Of a stretch of DNA of 64,000 nt, positions 19,215 to 40,934 are shown in pieces; position 1 is the first letter of the stretch, and each line of letters starts with the position of its first letter. Position numbers and translations under genes: made by a program. This DNA comes from Jannaschia sp. M317. Its GTDB lineage: Bacteria > Pseudomonadota > Alphaproteobacteria > Rhodobacterales > Rhodobacteraceae. A model generated the notes under the pieces. The model was not told the origin of the DNA. It saw nothing but the letters and a program-made list of their open reading frames with translations, and ran no database searches. The stretch covers positions 3,067,001 through 3,131,000 of the forward strand of contig NZ_CP081155.1 in the NCBI RefSeq assembly GCF_025141175.1. Direction: 5' to 3'.

Positions 19215-20569
19215 CGTCTTGCCGCTCCCTTCTTGGACCCACGCTTCTTGCCGCGCAGCTGGCTCTTCTCGATCAGACCCTCGTACTGGTGCGCCAGCAG
19301 ATGGCTTTGCACCTGTTGGATCGTATCCATCCCCACCGACACGATGATCAGGATCGAGGTGCCGCCGAAGTAGGCCGTGATAGCCAGCTGGCTGCGCACC
19401 ATCTCAGGCACCAGACAGACCAGCGCCAGGTAAGCCGCACCCAGAACGAGGATCCGGTTGGTGACGTATTCCAGGTATTCAGCGGTGCGCTTGCCCGGCC
19501 GGATGCCCGGAATGAAGCCGTTCTGGTTCTTCAGATTGTCCGCCACGTCATCGACCTTGAAGGCGACGTTGTGGGTGTAGAAATAGGTGAAGAACACGAT
19601 CATGGCCGCAAAGAACAGCAGATACAGCGGCTGTCCGGGTCCGAAATAAGCCAGGATCGTCGACATGATCGGGCCGGAATTCTGACCCGAGAAGGTGCTG
19701 ATCGTCGTCGGCAGCAACAGCAGCGACGAAGCAAAGATCGCCGGGATCACGCCCGCCGGGTTAACCTTGATCGGCAGGTGGCTGGACCCGCCATCATAGA
19801 CCTTCATCCCCACCTGACGACGCGGGTACTGGATGTGGATCTTGCGCAGGCTGCGTTCCATGAACACGACCAGAACAAGGGTGCCCAGCAACATCGCCAC
19901 GACCCCCAGGATCGCAGGCGTCGACAACGCGCCTGTCCGGCCGCTCTCAAAGAACTGGGCCAGGGCGGCAGGCAGTTCGGCCACGATACCGACGAAGATG
20001 ATCAGAGAGATGCCATTGCCGATGCCGCGCGCGGTGATCTGCTCACCCAGCCACATCAGGAACATGGTGCCGCCCACCAGCGTCACGACGCAGGCCGCGC
20101 GGAAGAACAGCCCCGGATCGGCCACCAGACCGCCCGCCTCCAGCGATACGGCAAGGCCATAGGCCTGCAACGTCGCCAGGGCCACGGTGCCGTAACGCGT
20201 GTACTGGTTGATCTTCTTGCGGCCTGGCTCGCCCTCTTTCTTCAGCTGCTCCAACTGGGGGACCATGGCGGTCATCAGTTGCACGATGATCGACGCCGAG
20301 ATGTAGGGCATGATGCCGAGCGCAAAGACGCCCATGCGCCCGATCGCGCCACCCGTAAACATGTTGAGCACACCGCCCAACCCTGCTGCCGCCTGATCGA
20401 CGAATTCGCGCAGCGCGCCTGCGTCGATGCCCGGCACGGGGATATAGGTTCCGATGCGGTAGATGATCAGCAGGCCGATCGTGAACAGGATGCGTTGGCG
20501 AAGCTCTTTGGCTTTACCGAATGCACCCCAGCTCATGTTGGCGGCCATCTGCTCTGCGGCTGAAGCCAT
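19211..20569 (-). CDS. secY: Preprotein translocase subunit SecY
   Basis: 452 residues with about ten membrane helices. SecY forms the protein-conducting channel of the inner membrane with SecE and SecG. Family blocks include [17 protein letters not shown] near residue 45, [17 protein letters not shown] as the plug/helix 2 region, and [20 protein letters not shown] near residue 310. The C-terminal tail is basic ([12 protein letters not shown]). It lies 119 bases after rplO with a large hairpin in the gap, and it overlaps adk. Confidence 0.97.
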
Positions 20570-20592
20570 GAGAGCCCCTCTTGCTAAACTGA

Positions 20593-20627
20593 AACGCCGC
20601 CCGAAGGGCTTCCCCGCGGGCGGCGTT
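20593..20627 (-). other. Intercistronic hairpin rplO-secY
   Basis: AACGCCGCCCG pairs perfectly with CGGGCGGCGTT around a 13-base loop. On the minus strand it is followed by TTTCAGTTTAG, so it could act as a partial terminator before secY. Confidence 0.6.
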
Positions 20628-20688
20628 CAAGGAAAATCCTCAGATCATGTAAGCGGACCCGCGCCCGCCTACAACCGATCCGAATGCG

Positions 20689-21156
20689 TCACTCGGCGGC
20701 GGGGGCCGCAACAGTGACGGAGCCGCCCGCCTTTTCGACCGCCTCGACCGCGCCCTTGGACGCGCCGGTGACGGTGATCGTGGCCTTGGCGGTGATCTCA
20801 CCCTTGCCCAGCAGGCGGATGCCGTCGAGCTTGCGGCGCACCACACCCGCGGCAACCAGGTTGTCCTCGGTGATGGCAGCGGCGTCGAGGCGACCGTTGT
20901 CGATGAACTCCTGCACCTTGGACAGGTTGATCACCGCGAACGACTTGCGGTTCGGCTTGTTGAAGCCACGCTTGGGCAGACGCTGGTAGATCGGCATCTG
21001 GCCGCCCTCGTAGCCCTTGATGGCCACGCCCGAGCGGGATTTCTGACCCTTGATACCACGGCCACCCATCTTACCGGTGCCGGAGCCGGGACCACGGCCG
21101 ACGCGCTTGGCGCGGTGGGTTGCGCCGGGATTGTCGCGCAGATCATTGAGTTTCAT
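20689..21156 (-). CDS. rplO: 50S ribosomal protein L15
   Basis: 155 residues. The N-terminus [20 protein letters not shown] and the glycine-rich [20 protein letters not shown] block are standard for L15, an early assembly protein of the 50S. I used the ATG at 21156, which carries a GAGAAG site upstream; the frame stays open for 45 further codons without family similarity. It is the first gene of this block, whose promoter should lie in the 212 bases to the sulfotransferase gene. Confidence 0.96.
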
Positions 21157-21368
21157 ATCGCTTCTCCTCTTGCCGGAAGCGTCCCCGAAGCGATGTGGGA
21201 CGAACGCGGCGTTTCGATTCCTTCGCACCCAATCGGGCACCGAGCGCGCATACACCGCGCCCCCGGCCACATCAAGCCCCGCGCAGCCCAATGAATCGGA
21301 CCGATGGCGGCAAGCGTGCTATAAGCAAGGCACCTGCTCGCGCCCATAGTCACGAAAAGGATGCCCTG

Positions 21369-21977
21369 ATGCCCCTCGAAATAATCGGTGCCGGTTTCGG
21401 CCGGACGGGGACCGACTCCCTGCGACAAGCCCTGAACATGCTGGGCTTCGGCCCCTGCCACCACATGTACGAGGTCCGCGACGACCCGGAAAAGGTCGAT
21501 CTGTGGCACGACTACTTCTGCGGCGGCGCGCCGCTCGATCTTGATCGGCTGTTTTCGGGATACCGCTCACAGGTCGACTGGCCGGGGGCTCACCTCTGGC
21601 GGGAATCCGCTGCGCATTATCCGGATGCCAAGGTGATCCTTTCGGTGCGTGACCCCGAAAGCTGGTACGCGTCCTACGCCAAGACGATCAAGGCGTTCCG
21701 CGAGGCAGAGATGCCGCCAGACGTCCCGCATCTCCACAAGTTACAGGACTTCGTCGATGCGTTCCTCGCTGACCGCTTTGCCACAAAGGAAAAGGCCATC
21801 GCCGACTATCTGGACCACGTGGCAGAGGTGAAGGCCACGATTCCCGCCGACCGCCTGCTTGTCCTGGAACTGGGCGCGGGCTGGGAACCGCTTTGTGATT
21901 TCCTTGGCGTGGCAGTACCGGATACGCCCTATCTGCACACCAACGCGACAGAGGCCTTTCAGGAAAAGAACCTGTAG
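21369..21977 (+). CDS. Sulfotransferase family protein
   Basis: 202 residues. The N-terminal block GAGFGRTGTDSLRQALNMLG is the PAPS 5'-phosphosulfate loop of the sulfotransferase superfamily, followed by GFGPCHHMYEV. The 3'-phosphate block is KVILSVRDPESWYASY near residue 90. This is the small cytoplasmic subgroup common in proteobacteria (Sulfotransfer_4 type). The acceptor is unknown. The ATG at 21369 has AAGGA seven bases upstream. It stands alone on the plus strand between two ribosomal blocks. Confidence 0.85.
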   Translation: MPLEIIGAGFGRTGTDSLRQALNMLGFGPCHHMYEVRDDPEKVDLWHDYFCGGAPLDLDRLFSGYRSQVDWPGAHLWRESAAHYPDAKVILSVRDPESWYASYAKTIKAFREAEMPPDVPHLHKLQDFVDAFLADRFATKEKAIADYLDHVAEVKATIPADRLLVLELGAGWEPLCDFLGVAVPDTPYLHTNATEAFQEKNL

Positions 21978-22004
21978 ACCGGCGCCGCATGCCCGCCCGA
22001 CTGC

Positions 22005-22655
22005 CTAGATGCCGTCGCCGTCCACCGGTGGATTGCGCCAGCGCGGGGCGGCAAAGGGCCGGGTAAGGGCGCGCTCGACCATCTCTAACCGGTCCTGACC
22101 GTAAAACATGTCGCCATCGACCACATAAGTCGGAGAGCCCATGACACCAAGGGCCAGGGCCTCCGCTCCGTTGGCGTCGAACTGCGCCTGCGCCTCCGGC
22201 CCGGCAGCCCGCGCCAACAGGGCGTCCGGGTCATGGCCCAACCCGACCGCCAGGGCCGCCAGGGTTGCGCGGTCCGACAGATCGGCATCGTCGCGCCAAT
22301 GGGCCTGCAACAGGGCATGGGCCATGGCGTCCACCTGGGCCCCACGGTCCCCCAGGGCCAGGATCATGCCGCTTGCCAAGGAATAATCCGCGTCATGAAA
22401 CGTCGGACGAAACGACACCACCGGCACGCCCCGCCACTCCGCCCAGCGTTCGATCTCGCGCCCGAAGAAATAGTCGACATGCGCCTGCGTCCGCGCCCGG
22501 AACGCCAGACTGCCCTGGGCCTCTACCACCGGCGACAACGGAACCGGGCGATGCAGCAGCACCGCGCCCTCGGCAGCGCAGATCTGGGCCAATCGGGCGG
22601 ACCCGAGATAGGCAAAGGCGGAATGCGCCGAGTAATAATAGGTGATCACCTTCAT
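22005..22655 (-). CDS. 2-hydroxychromene-2-carboxylate isomerase family protein (DsbA-like fold)
   Basis: 216 residues of the DsbA/kappa-GST fold. It begins KVITYYYSAHSAFAYLGSAR, where serines replace the CXXC of DsbA, as in NahD-type isomerases. The C-terminal GVMGSPTYVVDGDMFYGQDR motif is the cis-proline loop and is diagnostic. NahD uses glutathione to isomerise a naphthalene-pathway intermediate, but many homologues have no known substrate and none of the pathway genes are near. It is divergent from the VWA genes, with 44 bases between the starts, so the two promoters must overlap. Confidence 0.82.
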   Translation of the reverse strand: MKVITYYYSAHSAFAYLGSARLAQICAAEGAVLLHRPVPLSPVVEAQGSLAFRARTQAHVDYFFGREIERWAEWRGVPVVSFRPTFHDADYSLASGMILALGDRGAQVDAMAHALLQAHWRDDADLSDRATLAALAVGLGHDPDALLARAAGPEAQAQFDANGAEALALGVMGSPTYVVDGDMFYGQDRLEMVERALTRPFAAPRWRNPPVDGDGI

Positions 22656-22699
22656 GTGGGCACCCTTGATCGGTTCGCCGGGTCTTGCAAGGGTGGGGA

Positions 22700-23383
22700 A
22701 TGCGCCCGCTGATCGCCGCCCTGCTTGCAACGATCCTGACCGCCCAGACGGCCCTGGCCGAATGTCGCGATGATGCGATGGTGGTTTTCGACGGCTCCGG
22801 GTCCATGGCGGGCCTGGGGTTCCGCCCCGTCGGCCCACCGCGCATAGACGAAGCACGCGGCGCCATGGCCCGCGTCCTGCCGGAGGTGGAGCATCTGCGC
22901 CGTATCGGTCTGGTAACCTACGGACCCGGTGACGCCTGCGACGCGATCAACACGCATTTCGGCCCGATCCCCGCCTCTGCCACCCCGATCCTCGACGCGC
23001 TGGCTCTGTTGCAGCCACAGGGGCTGACCCCGCTGGCCGCCGCCGTCGACCGCGCCGCCGAAGCCCTGGTCTACCGCACCCGGCCCGCGACCATCGTGCT
23101 GGTGACCGATGGAAACGACACCTGCGCCGGACGCCCCTGCGCGCTGGCCCCGCGCCTGGTCGCGGCGGGGGCGGATCTGACGATCCACGTCCTTGGCTAC
23201 AAGGTCGTCGGCGACTACGCCCCCGGTACGCCCTTCGCGTCGGGCGAACTCCCACGCGGCGAGGTCACGGCGCGCTGCATGGCCGAGGCCACGGGCGGCC
23301 GCTACATCCTGACCGAAACCATCGACGAATTGACCCAGGCCCTGCGAGAGACGTTGGGCTGCTACGTCTTCGGGCGGCTCTGA
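22700..23383 (+). CDS. Secreted VWA-domain protein, tandem copy 1
   Basis: 227 residues. A signal peptide covers residues 1-20 (cleavage ALA before EC). The rest is one von Willebrand A domain with a complete metal-binding site: DGSGS at 31-35, Thr110 in GLTPLAAAV and Asp137 in VLVTDGND. Cysteines at 22, 80, 142, 147, 193 and 221 recur in all four copies and suggest three disulfides outside the cytoplasm. It ends soon after the last cysteine (LGCYVFGRL). The start ATG at 22700 follows a GGGTGGGG run. The next copy begins four bases after the stop. Ligand and function are unknown. Confidence 0.85.
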   Translation: MRPLIAALLATILTAQTALAECRDDAMVVFDGSGSMAGLGFRPVGPPRIDEARGAMARVLPEVEHLRRIGLVTYGPGDACDAINTHFGPIPASATPILDALALLQPQGLTPLAAAVDRAAEALVYRTRPATIVLVTDGNDTCAGRPCALAPRLVAAGADLTIHVLGYKVVGDYAPGTPFASGELPRGEVTARCMAEATGGRYILTETIDELTQALRETLGCYVFGRL

Positions 23384-23386
23384 GCG

Positions 23387-24091
23387 GTGCGCCCTGCGCT
23401 GACTGCCCTGCTCTGCCTCGGGATGGCGCAACCGGCACTGGCCGATTGCAGCGCCGATGCCATGCTGGTCTTCGACGGCTCCGCCTCCATGGCGGCACCG
23501 GGCCTCGTCCTCTCCGATCCGCCCCGCATCGACGAGGCGCGCCGCGCCATGGCCCGCGCCCTGCCCCTGGTGGAGCACACTCGCCGCATCGGCCTGATCA
23601 CCTATGGTCCGGGGCCGGAAGGCAGCTGCGACGGCGTCACCTTTCGTCTCGCGCCGATCCCGCAGGCCGCGCAATCGATCCTCGATGTGTTGCAGACGGT
23701 CGATCCCAACGGGCAGACCCCCCTGACCAAAGCCGTCGCGCGCGCCGCCGAAACGCTGGATCATCGCAACCGACCCGCCGTCATCGTTCTGGTCACCGAT
23801 GGGGACGACACCTGCGACGGCGCACCGTGCGCCCTGGCCGACCGGCTGGCGGGCGAGGCTGCGGATCTGACCATCCACGTGCTGGGCTTCAAGATCGCGG
23901 ACGCCTTCGCCATCGGCGACTTGCAACGGCGCCCCATCCCGCGTGCGGCCATCGAAGCAGGCTGTCTGGCCGACCGGACCGGGGGCACCTATGTGCTGAC
24001 GGACACGGTCGAGGATCTCGTGGCCGCCCTGGACCGGACGCTCGGCTGTCTGGTCATCGGGGCCCTGCCCCCGACCCGGCGTCCCGCATGA
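23387..24091 (+). CDS. Secreted VWA-domain protein, tandem copy 2 (GTG start)
   Basis: 234 residues, clearly homologous to copy 1 along its whole length. A signal peptide ends in QPALAD just before the first conserved cysteine. The metal site is DGSASM, then Thr in GQTPLTKAV, then VLVTDGDDTC. The start is a GTG three bases after the copy 1 stop, so translation is probably coupled. The C-terminus runs 12 residues past the last cysteine and contains a proline/arginine tail (LPPTRRPA). As with the other copies, no partner gene explains it. Confidence 0.83.
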   Translation: MRPALTALLCLGMAQPALADCSADAMLVFDGSASMAAPGLVLSDPPRIDEARRAMARALPLVEHTRRIGLITYGPGPEGSCDGVTFRLAPIPQAAQSILDVLQTVDPNGQTPLTKAVARAAETLDHRNRPAVIVLVTDGDDTCDGAPCALADRLAGEAADLTIHVLGFKIADAFAIGDLQRRPIPRAAIEAGCLADRTGGTYVLTDTVEDLVAALDRTLGCLVIGALPPTRRPA

Positions 24092-24795
24092 CCCTGCGCG
24101 CCGGGTTTCTGTCGTTAGCCCTGTCCCTGCCCGCCGCCGCGGGGTCGCCCTGCGCCACCGATGCCATGCTGGTCTTCGATGGCTCCGCCTCCATGTCGGA
24201 GATCGGCTTTGACATTCAGGATGCCACCCGGATCGAGGACGCCCGCGTGGCCCTGGCCCGGTCCCTGCCGGACGTCGAGGTATTCCGCCGCATCGGGCTG
24301 ATCACCTATGGCCCCGGTGGTGCGGACGCCTGTTCCGGCATCACCCTGCGGTTCCCACCCGAACCCCTGGCCGCGACGCGTATCATCGCCGAAGTCGAGG
24401 CGCTGCGGCCCAACGGCCTGACGCCGCTGTCAAAGGCGGTCGAACGCGCCGCCGAGGTTCTGAACTATCGCAATCAGCCCGCCATCGTGGTTCTGGTCAC
24501 CGACGGAAACGAAACCTGCGGCGGCACGCCCTGCGCCCTGTCGAACAGGTTGGTGGCACAGGCGGCCGACCTGACCGTGCATGTGATCGGGTTCAAGGCG
24601 TCGGGTGACTTCTTTGCCTGGGACAGTCCCGAACAGACCTTTGGGGATGACACGGTGGCGCGCTGTCTTGCGGATCGGACGGGCGGGCTGTTTGTGTCGA
24701 CGGACACAGTCGACGCATTGACCGAGGCCCTGCGCGCGACGCTGGGCTGCCTGATCATCGGGGTCGGGCCGTCCCACGGACGTGACCATGGCTGA
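24088..24795 (+). CDS. Secreted VWA-domain protein, tandem copy 3
   Basis: 235 residues. The short signal peptide MTLRAGFLSLALSLPAAAGS ends just before the first cysteine. The VWA metal site is DGSASM, GLTPLSKAV and VLVTDGNETC. The six-cysteine pattern is kept. The ATG overlaps the stop of copy 2 (ATGA). A longer frame reaching back through copy 2 is open but only shadows it. The tail after the last cysteine is GPSHGRDHG. Confidence 0.83.
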   Translation: MTLRAGFLSLALSLPAAAGSPCATDAMLVFDGSASMSEIGFDIQDATRIEDARVALARSLPDVEVFRRIGLITYGPGGADACSGITLRFPPEPLAATRIIAEVEALRPNGLTPLSKAVERAAEVLNYRNQPAIVVLVTDGNETCGGTPCALSNRLVAQAADLTVHVIGFKASGDFFAWDSPEQTFGDDTVARCLADRTGGLFVSTDTVDALTEALRATLGCLIIGVGPSHGRDHG

Positions 24796-25513
24796 CCTCT
24801 GCCGAATCTTGACGCCCGTTCTCGCGCTGGCCCTGACGTGCCAGACTGCGTTGGCGAACTGCGCGGCCGACACGATGATCGTCTTCGATGCCTCCGCCTC
24901 GATGACCGCACAGGATTTCAACGCCACGCGGTCGCAGCGGATTCATCAGGCGCGCGCCGCACTGGCCGAAGTTCTGCCGGAGGTGGAGGACATCCGCCGC
25001 ATCGGCCTGACTGTCTATGGTCCGGAGGCGCAGGACAGCTGCGGCGGCATCCGCCTGCGCCTGCCGCCCCGTGCGGGGGCCAGTGCCGACATCCTGTCCG
25101 AGATCGACACCACAGCCCCCGCCGGCCTGACCCCCCTGACCGAGGCGGTGGCCCGGGCAGCCGAAGCCCTGTCCTATCGGACCCGCCCCGCCGTCGTGGT
25201 TCTGGTCACGGATGGCAACGAAAGCTGCGGCGGGTCGCCCTGCGCCCTGGCGGACCGGTTGGCTGCGACGTCAGCGGATCTGACCGTGCACGTGCTGGGC
25301 TACAAGGTGGTCTGGGATGCCTTCGCAAGCCACGGCAAACGCGATGCACCGTACTTCGGGGCGGAGGTCGTGGCCCGCTGTCTCGCGGATCGGACCGGCG
25401 GCACCTATGCCTCGACCGAAAGCGTCGCGGAGTTGACCGAGGCACTCCGGGCGACGCTGGGCTGTCTGGTGTTCGGGGGGCTGCGGCGCGGATCCGACAG
25501 GTCAAGCCATTGA
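24788..25513 (+). CDS. Secreted VWA-domain protein, tandem copy 4
   Basis: 241 residues with a signal peptide (MADLCRILTPVLALALTCQT, cleavage near TALA). The metal site starts with DASASM instead of DGSASM, which keeps the aspartate and serines; GLTPLTEAV and VLVTDGNESC complete it. The ATG at 24788 overlaps copy 3 by eight bases; an in-frame GTG six bases earlier is possible. This is the last copy, followed by a bidirectional terminator shared with the convergent rpmD block. Confidence 0.83.
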   Translation: MADLCRILTPVLALALTCQTALANCAADTMIVFDASASMTAQDFNATRSQRIHQARAALAEVLPEVEDIRRIGLTVYGPEAQDSCGGIRLRLPPRAGASADILSEIDTTAPAGLTPLTEAVARAAEALSYRTRPAVVVLVTDGNESCGGSPCALADRLAATSADLTVHVLGYKVVWDAFASHGKRDAPYFGAEVVARCLADRTGGTYASTESVAELTEALRATLGCLVFGGLRRGSDRSSH

Positions 25514-25521
25514 AAAGAAGA

Positions 25522-25547
25522 CGCCCCGGCCATTTCTGACCGGGGCG
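25522..25547. terminator. Bidirectional terminator between the VWA genes and rpmD
   Basis: CGCCCCGG / CCGGGGCG stem with a ten-base loop. It is followed by CTCATTTCTT on the plus strand and TCTTCTTTTC on the minus strand. It sits between the two convergent operons. Confidence 0.8.
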
Positions 25548-25592
25548 CTCATTTCTTGCGAAGGCGGCGTGAACCCCGCCCTACGCTGACGC

Positions 25593-25781
25593 TCAGTCGC
25601 GCTCTTCGATGATCTGCACCATGTGCGGGATCTTGGCGACCATGCCGCGCACGGAGGGGGTATCCTCCAGCTCGCGGGTCTTGTGCATCTTGTTCAGACC
25701 CAGACCGATCAGCGTGGCACGCTGGTCGGCGGGGCGACGGATCGGAGAGCCGATCTGTTTTACGACGATCGTTTTAGCCAT
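25593..25781 (-). CDS. rpmD: 50S ribosomal protein L30
   Basis: 62 residues, normal for L30. [20 protein letters not shown] and the [20 protein letters not shown] block are standard. It follows rpsE by three bases and is the last gene of the spc block here, because rplO has been separated from it by the VWA region. Confidence 0.96.
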
Positions 25782-25784
25782 GGA

Positions 25785-26375
25785 TCAAGCCTCCTCTACG
25801 GCAGGGGCCTGCGTGCCGTCGATCTTGGGCGCATCGCCCTTGTTCAGAATGTCGGCCACCTTCTTGCCGCGACGCTGCGCGACCGAGCGGGGGCTCGATT
25901 CCTTCTGAAGACCGTCGAGCGTGGCCCGGATCATGTTGTAGGGGTTCTGCGAACCGATCGACTTGGACACGACGTCCTTGACGCCCAGCATCTCGAACAC
26001 GGCACGCATCGGACCACCGGCGATGATACCCGTACCTTCGGGCGCGGTGCGCATCACGACGCGACCGGCACCGTGGCGACCGGCGACATCGTGGTGCAGG
26101 GTCCGGCCGTCGCGGAGCGCGACGCGGATCATCTGGCGCTTGGCTTGCTCGGTGGCCTTGCGGATGGCCTCGGGGACCTCCTTGGCCTTGCCCTTGCCGA
26201 AGCCGACGCGGCCCTTCTGGTCGCCAACGACGACGAGCGCGGCGAAGCCGAAGCGCTTACCGCCCTTGACGGTCTTGGACACGCGGTTGATCGCCACAAG
26301 GCGGTCGGCGAATTCCGGGGTTTCGTCACGGTCGCGGCCACGGCCCCGCCCACGGTTGTTGTCACGTTCTGCCAT
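25785..26375 (-). CDS. rpsE: 30S ribosomal protein S5
   Basis: 196 residues. An arginine-rich N-terminus ([20 protein letters not shown]) precedes [20 protein letters not shown] and the glycine loop [21 protein letters not shown]5 sits at the mRNA entry and decoding region. The start at 26375 gives the family length; a frame opening at 26471 would add 32 residues that run through a hairpin zone and is rejected. Confidence 0.96.
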
Positions 26376-26404
26376 GCGGCATCTCCTGCATGTCTTGGGG
26401 CGAT

Positions 26405-26460
26405 TTGCCCCGTTTTGTACAATCCTGGTGACCGGGCTTCCCGTTTTGGGGGAAACCCGG
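26405..26460. repeat. Paired intergenic repeat, copy 2
   Basis: Two units, TTTGCCCCGTTTTG near 26405 and TTCCCGTTTTGGGGGAAACC near 26439, lie between rplR and rpsE. They match the paired units at 5440-5486 and 48536-48591. The second forms a hairpin with its flanks (CCGGG / CCCGG, 26432-26460). Confidence 0.55.
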
Positions 26461-26473
26461 TCCCGGATCATCG

Positions 26474-26495
26474 AGGGGGCCGCAAGCGGCCCCCT
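26474..26495. other. Intercistronic palindrome rplR-rpsE
   Basis: AGGGGGCCGC-AA-GCGGCCCCCT is a perfect palindrome ten bases past the rplR stop. It may be a partial terminator or RNA-processing site inside the spc block. Confidence 0.6.
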
Positions 26496-26504
26496 ACCCG
26501 TCTC

Positions 26505-26864
26505 TTAGAACTTCAGGCCGCCTTCACGCGCAGCGTCGGCCAGAGCCTTCACCTTGCCGTGGAAGAGGAAACCACCGCGGTCGAAGTACACTTCTTCCAC
26601 GCCGGCCTTCTTGGCCCGCTCGGCAATCGCCGCGCCGACCGATGCGGCCGCCTCGACGTTGTTCTTGCCGACCATGCCCAGATCTTTTTCGAGCGTGGAG
26701 GCAGACGCGAGCGTCACGCCTTTCACGTCGTCGATCAACTGGACGCTGATGTTCTTGTTCGAACGATGCACCGACAGGCGCGGACGCCCGGCTGCCATCT
26801 TGCGAAGCTTGTTCCGGACGCGCAGGCGGCGCTTGAGGAACAGATCCCGTTTGCTGTTTGCCAT
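26505..26864 (-). CDS. rplR: 50S ribosomal protein L18
   Basis: 119 residues. [20 protein letters not shown] and [15 protein letters not shown] are the L18 core that binds 5S rRNA, and the protein ends [19 protein letters not shown]. It follows rplF by 11 bases. Confidence 0.97.
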
Positions 26865-26875
26865 CTGACTGGTCC

Positions 26876-27409
26876 TTACTTCTTCTTACCTTCCTTGCGG
26901 AAGATATACTCGCCCTTGTAGCGGATGCCTTTGCCCTTATAGGGCTCCGGCGAGCGCCACTCGCGAATGTTTGCTGCAACCTGGCCGACCAACTGCTGGT
27001 CGATGCCTTCGACGGTGATCTCGGTCTGCTTGGGGGCCGTCACGGTGACGCCCTCCGGCACATCGAAGTTGACGTCATGCGAATAGCCGAGCGCCAGCTT
27101 GAGCGTGCTGCCCTGCATGGTCGCACGGTAACCAACACCCGTGATCTCCAGCTCTTTCTTGAAGCCGGTGGTCACGCCAGTCACCAGGTTTTCGACCATG
27201 GTGCGGGACATGCCCCACTGCTGCCGAGCACGCTTGGACTTGCCGCGCGGGGTCACCGACACGGCGTTGTCTTCGACCGTCAACGTGACGTCGTCGGCCG
27301 CAGTGAACGTGCGGGTGCCCTTGGGGCCCTTTACCGAGATCGTCTGACCGGAAATCGAGGCTTCGACGCCGGACGGCAGATCGACGGGACGTTTGCCAAT
27401 ACGAGACAT
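26876..27409 (-). CDS. rplF: 50S ribosomal protein L6
   Basis: 177 residues with the start [20 protein letters not shown] and the C-terminal [20 protein letters not shown] block, both diagnostic of L6. The start at 27409 was chosen over a frame opening at 27541, because the extra 44 codons shadow rpsH. It follows rpsH by ten bases. Confidence 0.97.
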
Positions 27410-29919: not shown

Positions 29920-30104
29920 CGCCTTGGTCCTTTCAACATCACCGGGCCGCTTCGCGATGAGCGCGAGTCACGGCTGATTCCGGTGGAGATCATCGGTAGA
30001 GAGCGCCGCATAGACGGGTTGGCCGGGGGTGGCAAGCGTTTATCGCGCTTGTGCGCAGGGACGCGGGATCGCATCAGCAGCGCAGATCAAACAAAGGCCC
30101 CCCC

Positions 30105-30521
30105 ATGATCCGCCGCACCCTTGCCTGCGCCTTGCTGCTGGCCGTAGCGACGCCCGTCACCGCACAGACCACGGCGCTCCTGCTGTTTGGCGGCCCCAAC
30201 GGCACACAATACGCCGGTTGCCTCAACTGCAACAGCTATGACCAGCAGTCCGTCTGCAATGCCTATGGGACATACGGGTCAAAGTATCAGCCGGACAGCA
30301 TTTGGAACCGCTATGGAACCTTCGGATCGAAGTTCAATCCAGACAGTCCGTGGAACAGGTATGGCACGGGCCTGCGGATCGTCGATTCCCAAGGGGGCTA
30401 CTACGGCAACTTCACCAGTTCGCGGAACAACCGGTCCCGCCTGTCGGTGGTCACCGCATTGGTAGAGGCGAACGAAGCCATGGACGACCTCGATGCGCTT
30501 CGGGATCTGTTCTGCAAGTAA
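30105..30521 (+). CDS. Small secreted protein with YGS/WN aromatic repeats, function unknown
   Basis: 138 residues. A signal peptide covers residues 1-20 (MIRRTLACALLLAVATPVTA), followed by TTALLLFGG. The mature part has CLNCNSYD and then two near-repeats: YGTYGSKYQPDSIWNRYG and the adjacent FGSKFNPDSPWNRYG. A DSQGGYYGNFTSSRNN segment follows, and the acidic C-terminus ends in a lone cysteine. I recall this YGSKY/SxWN pattern from unnamed proteins in other bacteria, but no function is known to me. The ATG at 30105 follows a poor ribosome site (a run of Cs), so expression may be low. Confidence 0.75.
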   Translation: MIRRTLACALLLAVATPVTAQTTALLLFGGPNGTQYAGCLNCNSYDQQSVCNAYGTYGSKYQPDSIWNRYGTFGSKFNPDSPWNRYGTGLRIVDSQGGYYGNFTSSRNNRSRLSVVTALVEANEAMDDLDALRDLFCK

Positions 30522-30531
30522 ACGTGGCGCG

Positions 30532-31152
30532 TCACGCCCACTTGTAGTTGAAACTCACCGAGACCCGCTCCTCCTCGGCCTGATTCATCGGCACCTCGTG
30601 GCGCAGCCAGCTTTCCCACAGCAGCACGTCGCCAACCCTGGGTGCCTCCGAATGGAAGGTCCGCAGCTTTTTCGGCGCGTCCTTGCGGCGCGGGGGCGCG
30701 GCCATCATCATCGGCAGGCGGGGGTCTTCGAGTTTCAGGGCGCTCGTCCCCTCGGGCATCGCGACATAGGTCGTGCCCGAGATCACCGAATGCGGGTGGA
30801 TATGGCTGCCGTGGCTGCCGCCTTCGGGCAGGATGTTGATCCAGATGTCTTCCAACTCCAGCGGGCGGCCGCCAAGGTCAAAGGCCAGTTCATCGGCAAA
30901 GGCCGCGACGTGGCGATCAAGGCACTTCACCAGATCCGCAAACACCGGCATCCGCCACGGCAGGTCGGTCAACGACGCATAGGAGGTATAGCCGGGATAG
31001 CCGTTCGCCTCGCACCAATCGTGCCCGGCCTCGTCGTCTTCGGCCACGGAATAGCAGGTCGCCGCCAGTTCGTCGGCGTCGATGCGGGGTTTGTGCTCCG
31101 ACAGGGGGGCACGGTAGAGGCGGGTCACGAAGAGCGAGGAGATATCGGGCAT
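30532..31152 (-). CDS. Putative 2OG-Fe(II) oxygenase (TIGR02466-like)
   Basis: 206 residues. The core is LEDIWINILPEGGSHGSHIH, then PHSVISGTTYVAMPEG, which places an iron-binding His cluster on the double-stranded beta helix. The C-terminal RVGDVLLWESWLRHEVPMNQ carries the second His, followed by RVSVSFNYKW with the arginine that should bind 2-oxoglutarate. This pattern fits the uncharacterised TIGR02466 family. The start at 31152 is preferred; an earlier frame overlaps the divergent methyltransferase gene. It converges on the small secreted protein gene. The substrate is unknown. Confidence 0.8.
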   Translation of the reverse strand: MPDISSLFVTRLYRAPLSEHKPRIDADELAATCYSVAEDDEAGHDWCEANGYPGYTSYASLTDLPWRMPVFADLVKCLDRHVAAFADELAFDLGGRPLELEDIWINILPEGGSHGSHIHPHSVISGTTYVAMPEGTSALKLEDPRLPMMMAAPPRRKDAPKKLRTFHSEAPRVGDVLLWESWLRHEVPMNQAEEERVSVSFNYKWA

Positions 31153-31213
31153 GGGGCTGCATAGACCCCGCCCGGCGGCTGGGCAATATTGCGCGCACCG
31201 GAACGGAGCATCC

Positions 31214-32410
31214 ATGGTCACGATCACCGAACACTACGACGCCTACCCCTACCCTGCCCGCGACCCCGCCGAGGAAGACAGGCGGCTGATCACCGGGTCG
31301 CCATCGCGGCCGGTCGAGATGGATCACTACCTGTGGGGCGGAAGGCGCGACTGGTCGCAGCCCTTGCGGGTGCTGGTGGCGGGCGGCGGATCAGGGGACG
31401 GGACGGTGCAGTTGGCGCAGCTGCTGACCGATGCCGGGCGGCCCTATGACATCACCTATCTGGATATGGCACCGCGCGCGCGCGCCGTGGCCGAGGCGCG
31501 GGTGGCGCGCCGGGGATTGTCGGGGGTGACGTTCCGTACCGGGTCGTTGCTGGATGCCGCTGACATGGGGGTCTTCGATTACATCGACTGCTGCGGGGTG
31601 CTGCACCACCTGCCGGACCCGGCGGCAGGGTTCGCCGCGTTGCGGGCGGCCTGCGCCCCCGGTGGCGGCCTGGGGTTCATGGTCTATGCGCCCTATGGGC
31701 GGTCCGGCGTCTATCCCCTGCAGGACGCCTTTGGCACCCTGTTCGAGGGGCTGGCACCCGAAGCGCGGCTGGCGCGGGCCAAGGCCATCGTTGCCCGCCT
31801 GCCCGAGGGCCATCCCTTTCGCTGCAACCCCCATCTGGTCGATCATGAGGCCAGCGATGCCGGGTTCTACGACCTGCTGCTGCATTCCCAGGACCGCGCC
31901 TTTTCGGTCGCGGCGCTGGAACAGACACTGAACGCGACAGGCTGGCAGGTGGCGAGCTATTGCCAGCCAGGCCTGTATGACCCGTCAGAGGTGGCGGGCC
32001 CCGACCATGGGTTGACCGGGCGCGCCGCGCGCAGCGTGGCGGAGCAGCTGCGCGGCACGATGAAGGTGCATGTGGCCTACGCGGTGCCGCAGGGCGTGCA
32101 GCAGCAGGTGGCGCGCGGCACGGATCGGACGTTGGTTCCGCATCTGGTCGGGGTGCCCGCGGGCAAGCTGGCGCAGGCGGTGGCCGCGGGGCGGCGGGTG
32201 CCTGTGACAGCCGGGGGCACGCGGCGGGACGTGGCGCTGCCAAAGGCGGCGGCACGGTTGATCGCGGGCATCGACGGCCGGCGGACCTTGGCCGAGATCG
32301 CACGCGGCGCGGGGGCCGATCCGCTTGCCTTTGGCGCGCTCTGGTCGCGGGTGGAGGCCGGGCTCATGCCCTGGGGCCTGCTGCAATACTCGGGCCTGCT
32401 GCGCAGGTAG
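31214..32410 (+). CDS. Class I SAM-dependent methyltransferase with extra C-terminal domain
   Basis: 398 residues. The N-terminus (HYDAYPYPARDPAEEDRRLI) is typical of a group whose first residues name short aromatic/proline motifs. The SAM-binding loop is VLVAGGGSGDGTVQLAQLL near residue 58; motif II is ITYLDMAPRARAVAEAR, and motif IV is CCGVLHHLPDPAAGFAALR. Residues from about 290 form a separate region ending RTLAEIARGAGADPLAF and GLLQYSGLLRR, which could be a small winged or PqqD-like domain. The substrate is unknown. It is divergent from the oxygenase gene, with 61 bases between the starts. Confidence 0.83.
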   Translation: MVTITEHYDAYPYPARDPAEEDRRLITGSPSRPVEMDHYLWGGRRDWSQPLRVLVAGGGSGDGTVQLAQLLTDAGRPYDITYLDMAPRARAVAEARVARRGLSGVTFRTGSLLDAADMGVFDYIDCCGVLHHLPDPAAGFAALRAACAPGGGLGFMVYAPYGRSGVYPLQDAFGTLFEGLAPEARLARAKAIVARLPEGHPFRCNPHLVDHEASDAGFYDLLLHSQDRAFSVAALEQTLNATGWQVASYCQPGLYDPSEVAGPDHGLTGRAARSVAEQLRGTMKVHVAYAVPQGVQQQVARGTDRTLVPHLVGVPAGKLAQAVAAGRRVPVTAGGTRRDVALPKAAARLIAGIDGRRTLAEIARGAGADPLAFGALWSRVEAGLMPWGLLQYSGLLRR

Positions 32411-38906: not shown

Positions 38907-40934
38907 TCAGGCGGCTTCCTGTCCTGGCGTGGGGCCGACCTTGCGATCCGACACCTCGAAGGCGGCCATCAGAGACAGCATTTGCGAGGCCGCGCTATTG
39001 AGCGACTGGTTGGCGTTGCTTACCTCTTCGAACATTGCGCTGTTCTCTTTTGTGGCTGCATCGATCTCGCCCAGGGCGCGGTTGATTTCCCGCGCGGCAT
39101 CCGACTGTGCATCGGCAGAGGCTGCGATTTCGGACACCTGTCGCCCGATCTCGACGATGCGCGCGCTCAGCGTTGAAAGCGATGCGCCCGTGCGTTCAAC
39201 CTGGCTTTCACCCTTGTCGATCTCGCTGGAGCTGCTCTCGATCAGGCCACCGATCTGCCGCGCCGCACTGGACGCCCGCAAGGCCAGCGCCCGCACTTCG
39301 GAGGCGACCACGGCAAAACCACGCCCCGCCTCACCGGCGCGGGCGGCCTCGACCCCTGCGTTCAGCGCAAGGAGGTTCGTCTGGAATGCGATATCGTCGA
39401 TCACGCCCAACGTGCGCGAAATCTGCGCCGAGGCCGATTTGATCGCCTGCATCGCCAGGATGGCGTCCTTCACCACGGTCCCCGTACGCTCCGCCTCCTG
39501 CTCGGAGGCATCGGCAAAGGCCCGCATACGCCCCGTCATTTCGGCAGTGGAGGCGATGGTCCCGGCGATCTGATCAAGGGCATGTGTCGTTTCGGTGAGA
39601 CTGTCGGCTGTCCGTTCCGTCCGCGCCGCCAGAAGATGTGCCGAAGCTGCAAGCCCACTGCTTTCTTCGAGAATCCCCTCTGCCTGCTGCGACAGCTTGC
39701 GCATCGCGCCCTCCAGATGACTGCCAAGCGCATTGGCGGAGCCCTGCAATTGCGCGAACGCGCCCCTGTGTTCCCCTTGCATCCGGGCCGACAGGTCGCC
39801 ACGTTCCAGGCGCATCAAAACGTCGGTTACCTCGCCGATACCGCTGTCGACACGTTCCAGCAGGGTATTGATCATCACGCGCAGGACCCGCTGGTCGTCG
39901 GGCGCGCCGTCGACGTCCAGATCGCGGTCGAACAGACCTTCAGAGGCGGCGGCCAGAATCTCGCCCAGATCGTCCTGCAACTGGCGCTGCAACAACAGCT
40001 TTTCCTTGGCCGCCGTGACCTCGTCGCGCGCGCGGGCCGCCTCTGCGGCGCGCTCCTCCGCTTCAGCGGCAAGACGGTCCTCCTGTAGGGCGCGCGCTTC
40101 GGCCTCGGCCTCGCGACCGCGCGCGGCAAGATCCTGACGGGTCCGGACATTGGCCCGAAAGACATTCAGCATACCTTTTATCCGGCGCACTTCGGTCGCG
40201 CCGCCAGGGGGCAGAAAGACATCGGTCCGATCCTCGGAAATCGCCTTCATCACGGTCAGGATCCGGTCAATCGGGCGCGACACCTGAACCCAGAGCAGCG
40301 CCATGATGGCCAGGCCCAGAACACTGGCCAGGACCGCGACAAGGACCACACCGGTGCGCCTTTCAAGCGCGAGGATCGCGTCGATTCGGTCCGTTTCAAA
40401 GACGACTTCCAGCAGGCCCGCGCGTGGGCCGGACCGGCCCACGGCAGATTGGATCGGCACCAGCGAGACGAGAAATCCACCCTGCATCCTGGTCCCATAG
40501 GGCGCATCCAATGACGGATCGGGCAATTGGTCAAACAGACCGACAACACCCGCAGTCTCGACCGAATAGACGGGTGAGCCTGTGTCATCAAAGGCGCGGG
40601 CCGCGACGATGGCGACGTTTCTCAGACCAATGACCTCGCGCGTCGTCTCCTCCGCGCGCTGCGCGTCCCAGGCGCGGACGAGCGCACCGATACGGTCCGA
40701 CAGAAGATAGGCCTGCAACTCGGAAGAGGAGCGAAATTCCAGCTGCATCTCCCGCTCCAGGCGGGAGAACCCGAAGACGGAACTGATCGTGAGACCCACG
40801 ACCAGGATCATCACGGCCATGGCCGTGACGCGAAAGACGAGCGTGTCGACGACGGTCCGCGACGCGCGGGCGATCCGGGTCAGACGTGCCATGGGCGCGC
40901 GGACCAGCCCGGTCCGGACCATTTTCACCCACAT
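38907..40934 (-). CDS. Methyl-accepting chemotaxis protein inserted between tuf and rpsJ
   Basis: 675 residues. Membrane helices lie at about 33-55 and 195-217, with a periplasmic sensing region between them. A HAMP-like segment ([20 protein letters not shown]) follows, then a long Ala/Glu/Arg coiled coil (about 260-330), a second HAMP-like stretch ([20 protein letters not shown]) and the signalling domain. The hairpin tip is [20 protein letters not shown] and [17 protein letters not shown]. No C-terminal CheR-binding pentapeptide is present. It should pass a periplasmic signal to CheA/CheW. No other chemotaxis gene is nearby. A terminator separates it from tuf upstream, so it needs its own promoter. 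Confidence 0.9.

Follow-up and report, generated by a model that had tools for sequence, protein, structure and literature searches.

We identified four tandem genes for small VWA proteins in a 64,000-nucleotide stretch of the marine bacterium Jannaschia sp. M317 (contig NZ_CP081155.1, positions 3,067,001 to 3,131,000; hereafter the window), where they lie within the ribosomal protein gene cluster. The four genes are real and intact (Table 1). Judging from sequence, we give barely better than even chances to the explanation that they encode exported, disulfide-braced, single-domain binding proteins with a metal ion-dependent adhesion site (MIDAS), one of them conserved and made together with diversified siblings. 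The steps of this explanation that have sequence behind them are the intact genes, the kept cysteines and MIDAS residues, the tight gene junctions, the shared gene order, a ratio of nonsynonymous to synonymous substitution (dN/dS) well below 1, and the variation in loops.

All 4 open reading frames (ORFs) were intact, and each product matched Pfam VWA_2 (PF13519) above its cut-off (39.0-47.3 bits compared to 27), which upholds an original prediction, made from the sequence alone, of four secreted-type VWA genes of 227-241 residues. PF00092 VWA was also above cut-off in all 4 proteins. No Pfam match other than VWA-type was above cut-off in any of the 4, and no NCBIfam model was above cut-off for any window VWA protein. 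A profile matched the solved VWA protein 4rck over its full length (E = 8.7e-9). Each protein has D-x-S-x-S, Thr, and Asp, the full metal-binding site that had been described, and the N-termini, judged by eye in the four proteins, are hydrophobic with small residues ahead of the first conserved cysteine and no lipobox, in agreement with the signal peptides assigned to all four. Six cysteines are invariant among the four proteins; the claim that the copies carry the same six cysteines stands for the mature parts, although genes 2 and 4 carry further cysteines inside the signal peptide. When gene 2 was searched against the complete genome (E up to 0.001), exactly these four copies were found. 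The window proteins share 51-56% identity with gene 1 or gene 3.

Conservation was assessed in an alignment of 217 unique relatives gathered with a profile of the four window proteins at E up to 1e-20, a sample that favors near relatives. All six cysteines were kept in each of the 209 relatives that covered all six positions (the other 8 had no letters at one end), and no residue other than cysteine occurred at these positions in any of the 217 rows. The MIDAS Asp and both Ser were present in 216 of 216 relatives with letters there, and the Thr and second Asp in 217 of 217. Mean column identity was 41% in a 75-row alignment, so constraint on the six cysteines and the MIDAS positions is strong. 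The first MIDAS motif was read as DGSAS in 138 of the 217 relatives, DGSGS in 47, and DASAS in 8. We rejected the spelling of this motif as a specificity code because such variation is common across the family, and the difference between DGSGS, DGSAS, and DASAS in the window copies, once taken as a clue to different ligands, carries little weight.

Relatives with fewer cysteines were also found. Four long relatives with an N-terminal VWA domain (L020, L021, L055, and L060; open frames of 443-772 residues) all have four of the six cysteines. Among relatives of another locus, L025, for which the best 120 of 208 were compared, 104 have cysteine at positions 82 and 144 but at none of the other four; the other 16 have a gap at 82 or 144 or, once, another letter. 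Distant matches were sampled at 10 loci, of which L022, L023, L024, and L026 yielded no sequence with the pattern used and lie outside the cysteine comparison. These nested sets of two, four, and six suggest that cysteines were gained or lost in pairs and point to possible disulfides between residues 82 and 144, 149 and 193, and 22 and 221 (gene 3 numbering).

The junctions between the window genes are +3, -4, and -8 bases, the last being -14 if gene 4 starts at an upstream GTG, as expected from the original description of gaps or overlaps of only a few bases. Gene 3 starts in an ATGA overlap with gene 2. Such spacing is usual for tandem copies in Jannaschia, with 13 of 14 junctions falling within -14 to +4 bases and 8 at exactly -4; the sole outlier, in genome G003, is +45 bases. 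A terminator shared by the four genes had been predicted as well. A hairpin does exist, but its T-run was called on the - strand only, on the side of rpsE and rpmD, and the + strand had no terminator call at that place. No promoter was called, with 0.6 expected by chance, and an Rfam scan of 20000-27000 gave no match. Tandem copies of the family also occur in Methyloceanibacter, three at L127:5210-7531 and two at L114:7845-9428; these branch apart from the Jannaschia copies. Measured between the longest ORFs, they lie 39 and 51 bases apart in L127 and 6 bases apart in L114, with uncertain starts.

The history of the copies was followed in a careful tree of 36 rows, six of them outgroup rows, and in an earlier tree. 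Loci L061, L062, L067, L073, L075, L087, and L095, most of which duplicate genomes already in the Jannaschia set, were excluded from trees and group counts, and L086 was excluded from alignment A2, which took 64 of 120 listed relatives. Two copies, G013_1 and G019_3, have very long branches and uncertain placement, and the six outgroup rows do not fall on one side. Forcing the four window copies into a single clade cost 132.6 log units and was rejected by the approximately unbiased (AU) test (p = 1.5e-9); in each of the two trees, the closest copies to genes 1, 3, and 4 came from other genomes. A private quadruplication in the window, as first proposed, is thereby rejected. The second copies of J. 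seohaensis (G009) and J. formosa (L063) group with gene 1, and copy 4 of J. seohaensis groups with gene 4, within a wider four-row group that adds J. formosa copy 4 and G002 copy 2. The copy nearest to gene 3 is that of G018 (76-77% identity; support 97/67). Gene 2 falls in the same seven-row group as gene 1 in the 36-row tree; its nearest copy is gene 1 in the first tree and the G012 copy in the 36-row tree.

Window copies 1, 2, and 4, which were named as a group after the first tree, were also rejected as one clade (p = 2.1e-4). The tree did not group the core copies as one clade, although such a clade was not rejected (p = 0.138), so "core" denotes a type and not a demonstrated clade; from the sequences it is probably an ancestral grade. 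Core-type copies are present in 15 of 16 Jannaschia carriers (15 of our numbered genomes and J. formosa), the exception being G012, which has type B only. Genes 1, 2, and 4 belong to faster lineages than gene 3. The order type B, core, type C is common to the window, J. seohaensis, and J. formosa. Related genomes repeatedly contain clusters of several copies in which the cysteines and metal sites are preserved, in line with the original prediction.

Ten pairs that we treated as orthologues or as copies of similar type gave dN/dS ratios of 0.12-0.36, and one further pair of doubtful orthology (G009_4 and L063_4) gave 0.62. Variation was compared by column entropy between 15 core and 15 extra Jannaschia copies, in segments drawn from general VWA topology. 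Entropy was higher in extra copies compared to core copies in the beta5-alpha6 loop (2.31 and 1.02 bits) and the first metal-site loop (1.51 and 0.72 bits). There was no added variability in alpha1 (1.21 and 1.20 bits) or beta2 (0.32 and 0.32 bits), and most other segments were somewhat more variable in extra copies. When pooled, the loops predicted to lie on the metal face gained 0.85 bits in extra copies, and the remaining segments gained 0.27 bits (Mann-Whitney p = 2.6e-7). An aromatic-(x)-Trp loop, scored with a looser pattern that accepted F, Y, H, W, or P before Trp, was present in 15 of 15 core copies, 3 of 15 extra copies, and 71 of 76 copies at other loci. The stricter motif DFFxWxxP was present in all 15 core copies and none of the 15 extra copies. 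The suggestion that the copies may bind different ligands thus keeps part of its ground, in that the copies are most variable where ligand binding is expected, but loses the part that was drawn from MIDAS spelling.

Several results weigh against the explanation of one conserved and several diversified binding proteins. Between the window copies themselves dN/dS was 0.40-0.53 in 5 of 6 pairs, with dS of 0.74-1.08, so that these ratios are rough. The p value of 2.6e-7 is no clean test because the loop set was fixed after the segment table had been seen, and it is weakened further because the fast group was picked from the tree and the rows compared share ancestry. DFFxWxxP occurs in only 22 of the 76 other copies. 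The looser Trp loop is missing in 32 of 119 relatives listed (from the best 120 of 764 matches among 8000 candidates scored), many of them Ruegeria-like, and in 6 of 77 single-copy loci, so loss of the loop needs no duplication. Relaxed constraint on the loops would look similar and is a serious rival. In its general form, this alternative treats the extra copies as tandem duplicates of long standing whose constraint has relaxed, kept for dosage or by drift, and functionally equivalent or heading to loss. Copy number is patchy among Jannaschia genomes, the extra copies have longer branches, and their overall entropy is higher (1.32 compared to 0.91 bits), all as drift would have it. However, every copy keeps the six cysteines and the metal site, four extra-copy pairs taken as orthologous have dN/dS of 0.21-0.36, and the added variability does not extend to alpha1 and beta2. 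We consider this alternative possible, although unlikely.

It is also conceivable, with a probability that we would put lower still, that the four products form a defined hetero-oligomer outside the cytoplasm in which each copy fills its own place. The overlapping genes, their shared order, and dN/dS below 1 are consistent with such a complex. In contrast, copy number ranges from 0 to 4 within one genus, and no tandem pair occurs at 72 of 79 loci (78 named loci and the window, chosen by likeness to the window genes, with 80 of 92 matching stretches kept). The set of types is not constant either: beside G012, with its single type, G003 has type B and core, and G002 has core and type C.

If the exported binding proteins are as we propose, the four genes would be co-transcribed from the overlapping set, and the products would be exported through Sec, as is suggested by the domain type, and oxidized to the three disulfides given above. 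As other MIDAS domains do, each protein would use D-x-S-x-S, Thr, and Asp to hold a divalent cation, and an acidic ligand group would complete the site, with the varied loops positioned around the metal. Gene 3 may bind a partner common to most of the family via its conserved aromatic-x-Trp loop, and genes 1, 2, and 4 may bind other or changed partners. A bolder version, doubtful in our estimation, is that these small secreted binders are translated together as a repertoire in Jannaschia and that a constant disulfide-braced VWA scaffold has its metal-face loops rebuilt in each copy, like a small receptor family housed in a ribosomal insert site, with one copy retained for a ligand that is ancient and shared and the others following partners that change, such as surface polymers, neighbors, or phages. 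If the proposed binding role is true, the four genes would offer a small natural series in which to study how the ligand of a MIDAS domain changes: fold, cysteines, and metal site are shared, the loops differ between adjacent genes, and there are orthologues in other species.

The VWA genes occur often in the bacterial family that hosts them, so knowing the function of the core copy would annotate many genomes. Of 295 genomes sampled from that bacterial family, 50 matched at a threshold of 1e-40. In 41 of these the match was strong, with a best E of 1.9e-64 or lower; the other 9, at about 1e-41 to 1e-43, were taken as a group to be probable carriers of four-cysteine relatives.

VWA proteins occur in methanol dehydrogenase operons, and by that analogy the window proteins could be maturation or metal-insertion factors for pyrroloquinoline quinone (PQQ)-dependent dehydrogenases. 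In Tateyamaria (L131:6876-8663 and L132:6852-8684) a six-cysteine VWA gene does start 9 bases after pqqE or a homologue, with pqqB, pqqC, and pqqE confirmed by family match in L131 and pqqE by similarity in L132, but we regard this role as highly improbable, since a pqqC match is lacking in the window's genome, pqqC is present in 3 of 20 Jannaschia genomes (two of them lacking the VWA family), and the link is not supported by pqqC co-occurrence in the 295 genomes, where 12 of 41 carriers had a match compared to 51 of 254 non-carriers (Fisher p = 0.22).

Compared to known systems, the window proteins are like the VWA/MIDAS superfamily in both Pfam models, the complete MIDAS, and the 4rck match; they are unlike it in being single-domain, in the three predicted disulfides, and in their tandem overlapping copies. 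None of the family's six cysteines was aligned in 4rck. The nearest described parallel is DUF1194, a tandem-capable MIDAS family of roseobacters. As described in the part of the report cited here, it has a VWA-like Rossmann fold with the MIDAS motif in 98 of 102 members and at least one copy per conserved locus in Rhodobacteraceae and Roseobacteraceae, and roles in adhesion or metals have been proposed (PMC12282271). DUF1194 was not among the Pfam families matched at E up to 1 by any of the 4 window proteins, and its locus includes an outer membrane protein of the type 11 secretion system (T11SS) (PMC12282271), which was not seen among the scanned window ORFs. DUF1194 is related as a parallel only. 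The statement that no system of this kind has been described holds for the six-cysteine family itself, of which we found no description in the literature searched, largely outside subscription journals, but needs DUF1194 added as a described parallel.

CglB, a surface VWA adhesin, mediates substrate binding in Myxococcus xanthus gliding according to the part of a review cited here (PMC13104615). All 4 window proteins weakly matched its model NF033757, but at 13.1-19.2 bits compared to a cut-off of 200 and with no lipobox by eye; they are not members. Bd0875, a MIDAS adhesin of Bdellovibrio, is described as exported, with a MIDAS Asp needed for normal prey entry and a cap above the metal site that sets it apart from paralogues (PMC11003981). 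It is likened here by description alone and differs in having a lipobox and a second small domain, with no tandem operon described in the portion of that report cited (PMC11003981). In tests for BatB, CoxE, and cobaltochelatase VWA proteins, matches to NF047506 (18.8-21.1 bits compared to 350; 3 of 4 proteins), TIGR02442 (17.6-20.8 compared to 779; 4 of 4), and VWA_CoxE (12.5-13.0 compared to 26.4; 3 of 4) were all below cut-off. "Ca-activated chloride channel family," a name that some sources give to relatives, was set aside, as none of the 4 window proteins has a domain beyond VWA. The earlier observation that no protease, MoxR ATPase, or pilus gene lies nearby was borne out among the 31 other ORFs of the window that were compared to Pfam; an AAA+ gene at 13053-14369 matches MgsA.

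Table 1. VWA genes and bordering features of the window (positions within the 64,000-nucleotide stretch)
Feature	Position	Strand	Remarks
VWA gene 1 (P0001)	22700..23383	+	227 residues; type B copy; DGSGS; no aromatic-x-Trp loop
VWA gene 2 (P0002)	23387..24091	+	234 residues; fast-evolving copy; DGSAS; no Trp loop
VWA gene 3 (P0003)	24088..24795	+	235 residues; conserved core type; DGSAS; DFFAWDSPE loop kept
VWA gene 4 (P0004)	24788..25513	+	241 residues; type C copy; DASAS; no Trp loop
Hairpin, 12 pairs	25521..25548		between convergent VWA and rpsE-rpmD units; T-run called on - strand only
rplO	20689..21159	-	left border of insert site
Sulfotransferase-family ORF	21195..21977	+	start uncertain; other cargo of rplO-rpmD gap
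DsbA-fold gene	22005..22655	-	divergent from VWA gene 1; start assigned by eye
rpmD	25593..25781	-	right border of insert site

The placement of the four genes in the ribosomal cluster had been considered unusual. This did not hold, because a variable insert site at the same place is already known from this clade. A 2012 proteogenomics report, in the part cited here, described the Ruegeria pomeroyi gap between rpmD and rplO and noted that both its size and its sequence vary greatly among roseobacters (PMC3305630). For the genes in that gap, no reverse transcription PCR (RT-PCR) product joining the insert to rplO or rpmD was obtained in the experiments described there, and similar inserts were noted in the sucCD and sdh operons of roseobacters (PMC3305630). 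The R. pomeroyi insert and ours are alike in occupying the same gap with variable content; they are unlike in that the R. pomeroyi genes lie on the ribosomal strand and such inserts were reported to lack similarity between species (PMC3305630), whereas VWA genes occupy the gap repeatedly and lie on the opposite strand. The family is thus one recurrent occupant of a site reported in 2012 as lacking between-species similarity, and the best explanation of the ribosomal neighborhood is that it is an insert site, not a functional link.

We compared 20 Jannaschia genomes, including the window's own, with a family threshold of E up to 1e-20. The VWA family was present in 15 of the 20, and in all 15 at least one copy adjoins rplO in the rplO-rpmD gap, the contig of G018 ending before rpmD. 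The gap holds four copies in the window and G009, three in G019, two in G002, G003, and G013, and one in nine genomes. The family was absent from G004, G006, G008, G011, and G017. The gap of G004 is about 0.1 kb, and those of G011 and G017 hold other cargo; no rpmD was found within the 6.7 kb fetched from G006, and the contig of G008 ends 4.3 kb from rplO. In G006 (L139, G006:C13:75500-82215) rplO is followed by trpA-like and ychF-like genes, read by eye, as if the ribosomal cluster had been split at the rplO-rpmD gap. One further VWA copy, of a different deep lineage, lies beyond rplR in G003, G015, and G018. The G003 copy adjoins a methyltransferase-like gene, and those of G015 and G018 are at a like distance.

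Across the 79 loci, ribosomal-cluster genes were found on both sides of the family at 28, on the rplO side only at 9, on one side at L087, and on neither side at 41. Among the nine rplO-side-only loci the contig ends within 1.3 kb in 5, and L074, L081, L104, and L105 have no rpsE-side genes in about 8 kb more. Three location states, labeled by hand, need 7 changes on a tree of 106 copies. As a test of joint inheritance with the flanking ribosomal genes, distance between VWA proteins correlated with distance between ribosomal flanks over 36 loci (rho = 0.32; 0 of 999 permutations); within the 15 Jannaschia loci the correlation was not clear (rho = 0.18; 141 of 999 permutations).

The DsbA-fold gene next to VWA gene 1 is also in the gap of G003, G005, G009, G016, and G019. 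By eye, its product has no CXXC and no signal peptide, so it is not an obvious disulfide partner and was rejected as such. The sulfotransferase-family ORF had no tblastn match in the fetched stretches of the 19 other Jannaschia genomes. Elsewhere in the window, a second insert in the ribosomal cluster (30051-32410), between rpsQ and the rplP-rpsC genes, holds a 2-oxoglutarate (2OG)-Fe(II) oxygenase-like gene and a methyltransferase-like gene. Another non-ribosomal insert, a gene for a methyl-accepting chemotaxis protein, is present at 38907-40934, between rplC and tuf.

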